Below the pieces are notes generated by a model. It was not told where the DNA came from. It did not search any database and worked only from the letters and a program-made list of their open reading frames with translations. Positions 714-63,906 of a stretch of DNA of 64,000 nt are shown one piece after another. The translations under genes were made by a program, and so were the position numbers. The stretch lies in NCBI RefSeq assembly GCF_002090135.1, contig NZ_BBRL01000008.1, positions 1 through 64,000 of the forward strand. Direction: 5' to 3'. Positions within the stretch are counted from its first letter, which is position 1; the number at the start of each line of letters is the position of its first letter. The DNA comes from Demequina sp. NBRC 110055 (GTDB lineage: Bacteria; Actinomycetota; Actinomycetes; Actinomycetales; Demequinaceae).

Positions 714-1522
714 GCCGCGGCGGGACTCGCGCCAGCCACGCCGTCGGCGCGTGCCAACGTGGCCGCATCTGGCTTCTGGGGACCGTCGCCGTCATGAGCC
801 TCGCGGCGTGTGCGAGCGATGCGGACGGCGCGGGCGAGCCCCAGGTCCTCACGGTCCACGCCGCGGCGTCGCTGACCGAGGTGATGGAACAGATCGGGGC
901 CGACTTCGAGGCCGAACACGCGGGCGTCGAGGTGCGACTCAACCTGGGCGGCTCGTCGGGCCTCGCCACCCAGATCGTCGAGGGCGCGCCGGGTGACGTG
1001 TTCGCCTCGGCCGACCTGGCGCAGATGGGGGTGGTCAGCGACGCCGGCCTCGCGCCGGAGCCGCTCGCGTTTGCCGCCAACGCGCTCACCATCGCGGTGG
1101 CGCCAGGCAACCCGCGCGACATCACGGGGCTGCAGGACCTCACCGACCCCACCATCGACCTGGTGGTCTGCGCGCCGCCGGTGCCGTGCGGAGCGGTGTC
1201 CGCGGCGGTCGAAGACGCCGCAGGGGTGACCTTGTCTCCCGTCAGCGAGGAGCTGTCCGTCACCGAGGTGCTCGCCAAGGTCACCTCGGGCCAGGCCGAT
1301 GCCGGGTTGGTCTACGTGACCGACATCGCCCGCTCACACGGCGAGGCCGAGGAGGTGCCCCTGGGCGGTGGCGACGAGGTGGCAATCGCGGCGAGCACTG
1401 AGTATCCCATCGCGACGCTCACGACCGCCGCGGACGCGGTGCTCGCGGACACCTTCGTGGCCCACGTGTTGTCCGAGTCGGGAAGACAACGTCTGGCCGC
1501 GGCCGGGTTCGGGACACCATGA
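710..1522 (+). CDS. modA: Molybdate ABC transporter substrate-binding lipoprotein
   Basis: 270 residues. Captures molybdate (or tungstate) outside the membrane and delivers it to ModBC. An N-terminal hydrophobic segment ends in a lipobox (SLAAC), so it is a lipid-anchored lipoprotein as in other Gram-positive bacteria. The mature part has the family signature [13 protein letters not shown] and later [13 protein letters not shown] and GDVFASAD, typical of ModA. It overlaps the preceding sensor gene and modB by 4 bases each, so the operon is translationally coupled. It supplies molybdenum for the Moco-dependent nitrate reductase encoded downstream. Confidence 0.95.
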
Positions 1523-2373
1523 CCGCGCCCGCGCCCGCGGGGACCCGCACGCGCGACGGCGCGGCGAGCGTGCCGCGATGGCTCGTCCTCCCCGCGCTCG
1601 TGGGCGCCGGGCTCATCGTGCTGCCCCTGGTGGGCCTCGCGGCGCGTGTCGAGTGGGGCTCGCTTCCCGCCCTCGTCACGAGCGAGTCTGCCCTGGCCGC
1701 ACTCGCCCTGTCGGCACGCACCGTCGCCGTGTCGACCCTCATCGTCGTGGCGCTCGGGGTTCCCCTCGCCTTGATGCTCGCACGGCTCGATTTTCGCGGC
1801 ATGGTGGTAGTGCGCACGCTCGTCCTCGCACCCCTGGTACTCCCCCCGGTCGTGGGGGGCCTGGGCCTGCTGTACGCGTTCGGCCGTGGCGGGCTGCTGG
1901 GCGACACCTTCACGCTTTTAGGGCTCGATGTCGCGTTCACCACCGCTGCGGTCGTTCTCGCGCAGACCTTCGTCGCCCTGCCCTTCCTCGTGCTCGCGCT
2001 CGAGGGCGCGCTGCGCGCCGACGGCACCCGCTACGAGGCGGTCGCCGCCACGCTCGGGGCCGGCCCGTGGACCACGTTTCGCCGCGTCACCGTGCGCCGG
2101 GTCTGGCCCGCGCTCGTGGCAGGCACCGTGCTCGCGGCCGCTCGCGCCCTGGGCGAGTTTGGCGCCACGCTCACGTTCGCAGGCTCGCTCGAGGGCGTGA
2201 CCCGCACCGTCCCTCTTGAGATTTATCTGCAGCGTGAGATGGACGCCGACGCCGCCGTGGCGCTGTCGCTGCTGCTGATGCTGGTGGCTCTCGTGGTCGT
2301 CGCCGCGGCCTACGGGGGCACCACGCGCGCCGCGCGCGCACGGACGTCGAGCACCTCTAGGGGAACGTCGTGA
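1519..2373 (+). CDS. modB: Molybdate ABC transporter permease
   Basis: 284 residues, about six membrane segments (first around residues 20-40, last around 250-270). The cytoplasmic EAA loop, which contacts the ATPase, is visible around [19 protein letters not shown]. This is the BPD-type inner membrane channel of the ModABC importer. The start overlaps modA's stop (ATGA) and its stop overlaps the GTG start of modC. Normal length for the family. Confidence 0.95.
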
Positions 2374-3359
2374 GGCTCGACGTGTCGGCGAGCGTTCCCG
2401 AGCGCGGCATCGCGGCCCGCCTGGTCGCCGATCCTGGCCGCACCGTCGCCCTGCTGGGACCCAACGGTGCGGGGAAATCGACCATGCTCGCGGTGGCGGC
2501 CGGGCTCCTGCGCCCTGACGACGCTCACGTCCGGCTCACGGGTGACGCGGAGCTCGTATGCCAGGACCAGCGAGCCTGGGTGCCGCCGCACCGCCGTCCA
2601 CTCACGCTGCTCACGCAAGACGCGAGCCTCTTCGCGGGCATGAGCGTGCTCGACAACGTCGCCTTCGGGCCGCGCGCCGAGGGCTTGAGCCGCCGCCACG
2701 CACGCGCCGCCGCGCGCGACTGGCTCGATGCGGTGGGTCTCGCCGGCCTCGCTTCCTCCCGAGCCGAGACGCTCTCGGGGGGACAGGCGCAGCGCGTCGC
2801 CCTCGCACGGGCCCTCGCCACGGCACCGGCGGTGCTACTGCTCGACGAGCCCTTTGCCGCGCTCGACGTGGACGCGGCCGGAGCCATGCGCGCGCTCCTG
2901 GCTCAGCTGCTGCGCGACGTGACGGTCGTCATGGCCACCCACGACCTCCTCGACGCGGCGATGCTCGCCGACGATGTCGTGGTGATGCACGACGGGGCGG
3001 TCGCGGAGCGAGGGCCCCTGTCCGAGGTCCTCGCGCGACCGCGCCACGACTTCACCGCGTCCCTCGTGGGACGCGGCCTGGTGCGTCGCGATGACGGCAC
3101 CTCGATTGCCCCCCGCCCGTCGCAGGTGCGGGTCACCACGGCCCATGCCACGCTCGCCTCTGGAGGCGGAGTCACCGGAGCGGTCAGGCGCGTCGAGGCG
3201 CACGCCGACGCCGTGCGCATCTGGGTGGAGGTGCCCGGCGGACGCCTCGGCGCGGACGTCGACCCCCTCACCGTCGACCCGAGGGTGCTGACGCCTGGCA
3301 CCACCGTGACGTGCGTGGTCGCGGACGGCGTGGAGTCGTACGGCTCCTCGGCGGCGTGA
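2370..3359 (+). CDS. modC: Molybdate ABC transporter ATPase with C-terminal TOBE domain
   Basis: 329 residues from a GTG start that overlaps the modB stop. Energises molybdate import. Visible motifs: Walker [10 protein letters not shown] (about residues 30-38), signature [16 protein letters not shown], Walker [13 protein letters not shown] and the switch histidine in MATHD. Residues about 260-329 form the TOBE oxyanion-binding domain usual in ModC. It ends the plus-strand operon. Twelve bases later the minus-strand Moco block ends, so the two transcripts converge with essentially no space for a separate terminator. Confidence 0.95.
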
Positions 3360-3370
3360 GTCCGCGGCGA

Positions 3371-63097: not shown

Positions 63098-63846
63098 GCC
63101 ACCGCCTCCATCGTCTTGGTGCCCGTGATGTAGCCCACCACGTCTTCGCGGGTGGTCTTGGCGACCTCGACCCGCGCGGTCATGGTCCCGAGGTAGAGGA
63201 CGGAGACGTCGTCGGCGACCTCGAACACGTCCTGCAGGTTGTGGGAAATCATGATGACCGCCACCCCGTGATCCGCGAGCCGGCGCACCAGCGCGAGCAC
63301 CTGGGCGGTCTGGGCGACGCCCAGCGCCGCCGTGGGCTCATCGAGGATGACGACCGAGGCCTGCTTCACGACGGCACGCGCGATCGCCACGGTCTGACGC
63401 TGTCCACCCGACAGCGACGACACCTTCTGGCGCAGCGACTTCACGGTCTTGACGGAGAGCGACTGGAGGGCGGCCGCGGCCTCGACCTCCATCTGGCCCT
63501 CCTCGAAGGTGCCGAGCCGGCGCTCCTCGCGTCCCAGGAACATGTTCTGGACGATGTCGAGGTTGTCGCACAGCGCAAGGTCTTGGTACACGACCTCGAT
63601 GCCATGTTTGGCGGCGTCACGCGGGTGACCGAGGTGCACGCGCTCGCCCTCGAAGAGCACCTCGCCGCCGTCGTAGGGCTGCACGCCGGCGAGGCCCTTG
63701 ATGAGGGTGGACTTGCCGGCGCCGTTGTCGCCGACGAGAGCGGTCACGCGGCCGGCGTGTGCCGCGAAGTCCACCCCCTTGAGTACGTCGACGGGCCCGA
63801 AGGACTTCGTGACCGCCCGTAACTCGATGATCGGTTGGTTCCCCAT
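63094..63846 (-). CDS. Sugar ABC transporter ATPase, single-domain XylG-like
   Basis: 250 residues. Walker A GDNGAGKST, signature LSGGQRQTVAIARAV, Walker B VVILDEPTAALG and ISHNLQDVFEVAD. Only one ATP-binding domain is present, about half of Escherichia coli XylG/RbsA, which is the usual form in actinobacterial XylG-like systems. ATG at 63846 with AAAGGAGTGTGC upstream. Confidence 0.9.
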   Translation of the reverse strand: MGNQPIIELRAVTKSFGPVDVLKGVDFAAHAGRVTALVGDNGAGKSTLIKGLAGVQPYDGGEVLFEGERVHLGHPRDAAKHGIEVVYQDLALCDNLDIVQNMFLGREERRLGTFEEGQMEVEAAAALQSLSVKTVKSLRQKVSSLSGGQRQTVAIARAVVKQASVVILDEPTAALGVAQTAQVLALVRRLADHGVAVIMISHNLQDVFEVADDVSVLYLGTMTARVEVAKTTREDVVGYITGTKTMEAVA

Positions 63847-63874
63847 GCACACTCCTTTGTGAGTCAAGGTGGGC

Positions 63875-63906
63875 GGCCGATGCCGTGGTCACCCACGGCA
63901 TCGGCC
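63875..63906 (-). terminator. Stem-loop made of an inverted pair of the 14-base repeat
   Basis: GGCCGATGCCGTGG (63875-63888) and its exact complement (63893-63906) with a TCAC loop, a 14-base perfect stem in the gap between binding-protein and ATPase genes. Probably lowers expression of the membrane genes relative to the binding protein, or protects the upstream message. No T run follows. Confidence 0.75.

Follow-up and report, generated by a model that had tools for sequence, protein, structure and literature searches.

A 14-base word is enriched throughout a Demequina genome

What does a 14-base word that recurs across the first 64,000 nucleotides of contig NZ_BBRL01000008.1 of Demequina sp. 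NBRC 110055 do there? This stretch (C8:1-64000, hereafter the window) belongs to a genome of 2.82 Mb, G000, and an original prediction made from its letters alone had likened the word, GGCCGATGCCGTGG, to an uptake sequence or to HIP1 (highly iterated palindrome 1). From the counts and comparisons described below, we consider it quite probable that members of the genus Demequina use the word as a DNA uptake sequence, acting like the DNA uptake sequence (DUS) of Neisseriaceae, a function deduced from patterns in the sequence. Exact search of both strands of the window returned 11 copies of the 14-mer, every one at a predicted position, and 35 copies of its core, GGCCGATGCC, of which 19 are on the plus strand and 16 on the minus strand, as had been counted by eye. 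Over the whole of G000 the 14-mer occurs 325 times (173 forward, 152 reverse) and the reversed word once, ruling out that the word is restricted to the window region, and there are 1118 cores for 30 reversed cores. With an order-3 Markov background in 427 kb (the window plus G000 stretches, some located at already listed copies), GGCCGATGCC was seen 194 times for 8.1 expected and GGCCGATGCCGT 110 times for 0.7 expected.

The place of the word within genes was analysed in a 478 kb sample of G000, made of the window and 21 stretches, in which 439 genes were called with a simple caller of our own rather than taken from annotation. Among the 91 14-mers of this sample, 53 are coding and 38 are non-coding or lie at a gene edge, and the non-coding sequence amounts to only 44 kb. 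All 53 coding copies fall in the two frames that had been proposed, 33 reading Ala-Asp-Ala-Val and 20 Thr-Ala-Ser-Ala, with none in the other four. GAT and GCA, which the word uses in these frames, are minor codons as had been supposed (15.5% of Asp codons and 6.9% of Ala codons in the sample). A by-product of codon or dipeptide bias could be suspected from the frequency of the Ala-Asp-Ala tripeptide, seen 312 times versus 188 predicted by residue frequencies. However, synonymous shuffling within genes (60 shuffles), which preserves proteins and codon usage, left a mean of 0.63 14-mers (maximum 3) of the 53 seen, a ratio inflated up to about 1.7-fold because some of the 20-kb stretches were placed at listed copies (91 copies/478 kb in the sample, 325/2.82 Mb in the genome). 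The core behaved likewise (160 seen versus 18.8 expected), and the reversed 14-mer was seen 0 times for 0.02 expected. The whole-genome counts are free of this placement bias and the conclusions on enrichment are independent of it. Since 38 of the 91 copies are moreover non-coding or at a gene edge and the codons used are minor ones, codon or dipeptide statistics are refuted here as an explanation, their remaining probability being negligible, and the word is more plausibly the source of the Ala-Asp-Ala excess than its consequence.

The word has no strand bias and accumulates at convergent gene ends

The consensus in G000 is GGCCGATGC[C, some G]G[T]GG, in which bases 4-6 (CGA) are invariant among low-mismatch sites and positions 10 and 12 are loose. 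The word has about 14 specified bases, surrounded by G+C-rich flanks with weak preferences. The absence of strand bias already noted from the window holds on a larger scale, both in the 173 versus 152 14-mers genome-wide and in the cores of 22 stretches (113 versus 99, with a summed chi-square of 12.3 against 1:1). These values bear on the idea that the word could be a Chi-like recombination hotspot or a motif of the KOPS (FtsK-orienting polar sequences) type acting in segregation. Such motifs are short, frequent and differ between species, as this word does, but they are oriented along the replichore, and the balance found here, tested by strand with the origin not located, makes this explanation very unlikely. 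Spacing between copies is near random, with a coefficient of variation of 0.99 over 190 gaps and 0.95 over the 182 gaps longer than 60 bp. The claim that the spacing resembles that of known uptake sequences was therefore not borne out, and even spacing was dropped as evidence.

Between called genes, in gaps of at least 20 bp, word density is 2.6/kb where genes converge (10 copies/3.8 kb), 0.9/kb in tandem gaps (19/21.9 kb) and 0.3/kb in divergent gaps (5/14.8 kb). A search of the G000 sample for inverted pairs within 40 bp, allowing up to 2 mismatches per arm, gave 13 pairs, of which 12 are head to head and 11 lie entirely in non-coding sequence, and 12 head-to-head core pairs were counted for 2.2 expected and 4 in the opposite orientation. 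The pair at 63875..63906 of the window, described earlier as a stem-loop, is intergenic and consists of two exact 14-mers (63875..63888 on the plus strand as left arm, 63893..63906 on the minus strand as right arm) that form a perfect 14-bp inverted pair around a 4-base loop. It lies between CDS (coding sequence) 63094-63846(-) and the following called gene, likewise on the minus strand. Its RNA fold z-score of -4.6 is one of five obtained for inverted pairs, ranging from -4.6 to -8.3. Some longer pairs span 48-50 bp and share an inner design (L035:14595-14643, L044:584-632, L046:5890-5937 and L041:3735-3784), with a loop of 20-22 bases that can hold a second small stem, and these look like one design reused. 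CGTACG was observed in the loop of three of these four pairs, two of the four having been folded. Across 19 genomes sampled, head-to-head core pairs occur in seven, with 12 in G000 and 1-3 in each of G031, G011, G005, G007, G002 and G029.

We also asked whether foreign genes avoid the word. The density of GGCCGATGC by quartile of codon typicality was 0.56, 0.72, 0.50 and 0.31/kb, the most typical genes having the lowest value, and foreign-gene avoidance is therefore not supported.

Relatives carry dialects of the word

ProA encoded in the window assigns it to Demequina (Demequinaceae), the closest named relative being Demequina sp. NBRC 110051 (97% protein identity). The 14-mer itself is patchy in the genus, with 444 copies in G026 and 0-3 in many other genomes, because the spelling of the word differs between genomes. 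De novo word searches in 21 genomes (20-460 kb each; stretches L047 and L048, which read as N, were left out afterwards) placed a word centred on GATGC at the top in 16 and third in G011, with varying spelling, and such a word was not among the nine best words listed in G004, G027, G034 and G043. In one of these, G043 (L199), another word, CCGACCCCGC / CGACCCCGCC, was observed with 10 copies in 20 kb. Whole-genome counts of GGCCGATGCC reach 1097 in G026 and 1081 in G031, those of GGCCGATGCG 1203 in G016, 1056 in G041 and 1005 in G002, and GGCCGATGCT has 736 copies in G005, while GGACGATGCS has 829-1642 copies in 16 genomes for reversed counts of 3-20. Altogether, 28 of 44 Demequina genomes are word-rich, with 651-1642 copies of GGCCGATGCC, of its form ending in G or T, or of GGACGATGCS. 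Seven are intermediate, with a top word at 259-427 copies (G003, G013, G017, G022, G032, G038 and G040; G013 has a weak label on the tree described below and was counted here for its 273 copies). The other nine are word-poor.

Under synonymous shuffling of 16 relatives, 12 showed an excess confined to their own dialect or dialects, and the excess was unconvincing in the word-poor G004, G027, G034 and G043. For example, GGCCGATGCT was seen 34 times versus 0.8 expected in G005, GGCCGATGCG 33 versus 2.9 in G001, GGACGATGCG 18 versus 2.3 in G029 and GGACGATGCC 16 versus 1.4 in G023. The comparison with sister species that had been suggested as a check thus yields dialects of one word, with CGATGC as constant inner core and changing outer bases. 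The dialects group into clades when placed on a ComEC tree (33 genomes), with 4 changes among the A, C, G and T labels, 1 change for the A/C split at the third base and 3 changes for word versus none. This is a quick single-gene tree in which some rows are incomplete (39% filled for G018, 32% for G042) and labels were assigned from word counts; mixed or weak labels were left out of the four-letter count, and word-poor genomes out of the four-letter and third-base counts. Read on such a tree, the dialects around a constant core follow phylogeny.

This pattern also bears on the possibility that the word is kept by selection as the target of a nucleoid protein or of an orphan DNA methyltransferase, a role of binding or methylation that has also been guessed for HIP1 in cyanobacteria. 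The genome-wide, strand-symmetric scatter would be compatible with it. However, the word is not palindromic, its roughly 14 specified bases in G000 exceed the usual length of methylase sites, there is no obvious reason why such a site should be enriched at convergent gene ends and arranged in inverted pairs as it is in G000, and outer bases that shift around a constant CGATGC are the pattern of an uptake sequence. We thus regard a binding or methylation site as unlikely.

Homologous sites change in place

At homologous sites, the word differs among relatives mostly by substitution. The copy at 52462..52475 corresponds to GGCCGATGCG in G031 (L166) and NBRC 110053 (L089) and to GGCCGATGAC in NBRC 110051 (L081), and the tenth base of the core at 60828..60837 (plus strand) also varies between relatives. 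Among sites keeping the first nine bases, all 5 in G002 and G028 together have G as the tenth, and 21 of the 27 in G026, G007, G011 and NBRC 110051 have C, a contrast with a one-sided p of about 0.002 (hand-calculated). G031, which has both words, gave 5 G, 4 C and 1 T, G005 gave 2 T and 1 C, G018 a single G and G023 a single C, and no site was kept in G001 and G029. The tenth base tracks the dialect of the relative, indicating gradual change in place and not the copying of an element.

A dispersed mobile repeat, such as a repetitive extragenic palindrome (REP) or a hairpin resembling a miniature inverted-repeat transposable element (MITE), spread by transposition, could be proposed from the hairpins, some of which are 48-50 bp long with a common inner design. 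Nevertheless, 53 of the 91 sampled 14-mers lie within reading frames and use two of the six frames only, and gaps at the word affect a minority of homologous sites, the intergenic copy at 56357 above all, against the substitutions seen elsewhere. Transposition is thus an extremely improbable origin.

Genes for pili and DNA import are present

The original prediction had suggested looking for com and pil uptake genes. In G000, one cluster contains matches to PilB, PilT, PilC, PilM and a pilin, and ComEA adjoins ComEC. PilT and PilM pass the NCBIfam curated cut-offs, and Pfam cut-offs are passed by the Competence domain of ComEC and by the HHH and SLBB domains of ComEA. Over the genus, a comEC match was obtained in 43 of 44 genomes and prepilin-type proteins were matched in all 44. 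The word-poor G036 (assembly 85% complete) has no comEC match, and in the word-poor G037 the match is split over two adjoining frames (G037:C1:2039413-2040200). A loss of the word tied to a loss of comEC is however unsupported, since split matches also occur in the word-rich G011 and G023 (assemblies 50% and 92% complete).

As a candidate receptor we considered a lone single pilin of about 140 amino acids with a Cys pair. In the PDB its profile matched 22 sequences, with type IV pilins and pseudopilins but no ComP among their names, and a strong match (E <1e-20) was found in 26 of 34 genus genomes. This candidate was rejected on its presence and absence relative to the word: no strong match was found in the word-rich G002, G006, G007, G014, G028 and G042, and the pilin occurs in the word-poor G004, G027, G034, G037 and G043. 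In a scan of all pilin candidates, five of these six word-rich genomes show clustered matches only, and the only pilin match of G002 is of another type (15 bits with the lone-pilin head profile). Head-domain scoring covered 13 candidates per genome; a second, weaker match turned out, in the six Demequina genomes opened (L327-L332), to come from a membrane protein carrying an outer domain similar to the lone-pilin head. By eye, this membrane protein has no prepilin start.

The word is rare beyond the genus

In an order-level draw, the 14-mer reaches at most 20 copies per genome beyond the genus. We counted GGMCGATGCS in 361 genomes of the order outside the family, of which 360 hold 2-631 copies. 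The exception is G351 (4.2 Mb), with 1659. It stands alone in its genus (n=38), inferred to be Cellulomonas, the other 37 members holding 193-493 copies. In 40 kb of G351 (L311, L312), GGCCGATGC has 11 copies, and other words score equally high there. Genomes of family f20 hold 101-591 copies of GGMCGATGCS, which is high for genome size in several of them. In this family (L313, L314), GTGAGCAGGA / TGAGCAGGAT was observed 6 times in <15 kb and is possibly a local repeat. No such word appeared in the pooled de novo top ten of the loci from Cellulomonas, the Promicromonospora group, Georgenia and Sanguibacter, a weak test on one homologous region.

Weighing the reading as an uptake sequence

Several observations weigh against an uptake function. 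PilB, ComEC and ComEA of G000 score under the NCBIfam curated cut-offs, and a comEC match is kept in 8 of the 9 word-poor genomes (G004, G012, G027, G033, G034, G036, G037, G039 and G043), in which no word exceeds 223 copies. The distribution of the lone pilin belongs here too. Turnover of sites is fast: at 83% DNA identity, G026 keeps 9 of 16 cores (control words 4 of 15), and none are kept in G002 (0 of 13) or G028 (0 of 14). Head-to-head pairs are absent from 12 of the 19 genomes sampled, 8 word-bearing and 4 word-poor, and in G000 the quartile densities give no enrichment of the word in codon-typical genes. Reversed counts give too low a background, as 28 genomes with another dialect or no word hold 42-202 copies of GGACGATGCS for at most 14 reversed copies, and the counts in the 360 genomes outside the family likewise place the background above the level of the reversed word. 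Finally, transformation data on Demequina were not found among the matches listed in the open-licence literature searched.

On the uptake reading, a DNA receptor at the cell surface, most likely a minor type IV pilus subunit, would bind double-stranded DNA carrying GG[CA]CGATGC[C/G/T], and retraction by PilT would deliver this DNA to ComEA and ComEC, through which a single strand would enter for homologous recombination. Fragments holding the word would be taken up more often, so that transformation itself would favour mutations towards the word. The word would then build up in permissive places, namely the two codon frames, intergenic gaps and the inverted pairs of some species, which may double as transcription terminators. 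A drift of receptor preference would carry along the word of the whole genome, giving dialects along the phylogeny. If this is true, a Gram-positive case would mean that such tags arise repeatedly and need no outer membrane, and the several dialects within one genus would make the coevolution of receptor and word traceable. Natural competence would also be predicted in Demequina, which could make the genus genetically tractable.

Positions of the word in the window

Five exact 14-mers lie inside coding sequences on the same strand, at 5949..5962 (-) in CDS 4948-6135(-), 33083..33096 (+) in CDS 31614-33869(+), 36199..36212 (-) in CDS 35306-36829(-), 52462..52475 (+) in CDS 52289-52951(+) and 54607..54620 (+) in CDS 53105-55498(+). 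Three are antisense inside coding sequences, at 6518..6531 (+) in CDS 6137-6856(-), 38790..38803 (-) in CDS 38774-39259(+) and 58499..58512 (+) in CDS 57965-59584(-). The copy at 56353..56366 (-) is directly beyond the stop of CDS 56376-56981(-), and gene calls agree with the original prediction that this copy and the core at 25325..25334 (+) are intergenic. Further cores are found on the plus strand at 1294..1303, 6700..6709, 17950..17959, 22759..22768, 25391..25400, 26455..26464, 30434..30443, 45885..45894, 49354..49363, 58355..58364 and 62680..62689, and on the minus strand at 8387..8396, 12150..12159, 16988..16997, 19009..19018, 19432..19441, 23595..23604, 32462..32471, 33269..33278, 44658..44667, 53206..53215 and 62066..62075.

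Two adjacent genes of the window (10242-12821 and 13341-15914, minus strand) match NirB, the large subunit of nitrite reductase, and a molybdopterin oxidoreductase gene lies close to them at 17383-19557. Perfect hexamer tandem repeats were noticed at 58681-58726 (CGGGCT) and 58949-58984 (CTCGGG), within the called frame 57965-59584(-), and the open reading frame 57965-59713 has no match in Pfam.

Comparison with known systems

HIP1 of cyanobacteria is a palindromic octamer, GCGATCGC, very frequent and of debated function. The Demequina word shares the high frequency, but GGCCGATGCC is not a palindrome, and the comparison fits poorly for this reason. Of the two likenesses originally proposed, the one with uptake sequences fits, through a non-palindromic word on both strands, terminator-like pairs, dialects, and pilus and com genes.

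A 2016 review presents uptake sequence tags as belonging to two families, the Pasteurellaceae and the Neisseriaceae (PMC5031613). Almost all other competent species import DNA regardless of its sequence, according to a study of 2025 (PMC12040237). Eight DUS dialects, two types of uptake signal sequence (USS) and inverted-repeat terminators are described in PMC12616744 and PMC3630211, and coevolution with the dialect has been examined for PpdA/ComN of Pasteurellaceae (PMC12616744). No report of an uptake sequence in Gram-positive bacteria, Actinobacteria or Demequina was among the titles and abstract openings listed from the open-licence literature, and Demequina and natural transformation are both named, but apart, in PMC8339730. 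Micrococcus luteus, another member of the Actinomycetota capable of natural transformation, resembles Demequina in having ComEA and ComEC in an actinobacterium. According to passages of PMC4322843, it uses Flp/Tad pili, apparently without other genes for type IV pili or a type II secretion system, and the use of Flp pili also figures in an excerpt of PMC6370729. The term 'uptake sequence' is absent from the text of PMC4322843.

The USS of Pasteurellaceae (AAGTGCGGT / ACAAGCGGT) is, like the Demequina word, a scattered word for self-recognition with dialect clades and inverted pairs, but its core GCGG(T) is not shared, and the flanks in Demequina are G+C-rich with weak preferences. The DUS of Neisseriaceae (ATGCCGTCTGAA and its dialects, with ComP as receptor) is also present in hundreds of copies or more on both strands, in coding and intergenic sequence, forms inverted pairs at gene ends (as in G000 and some relatives), and has dialects along the phylogeny around a constant core together with type IV pilus and ComEC. 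It differs in its inner core, CTG, compared with CGATGC in Demequina, which belongs to a Gram-positive phylum and in which the pilin comparisons identified no relative of ComP. The 14-mer has ATGCCGT in common with AT-DUS, but this motif is not kept in the other Demequina dialects and the overlap is probably a coincidence. By its sequence, the Demequina word is best read as an uptake word of independent origin outside the DUS and USS families. We are inclined to see in it a third family of self-DNA uptake sequences, which would have evolved independently and would be the first of a Gram-positive phylum (Actinomycetota), with at least four dialects around CGATGC in a single genus, a pilus receptor of its own, one related appearance in a genus belonging to another family of the order, and several losses.

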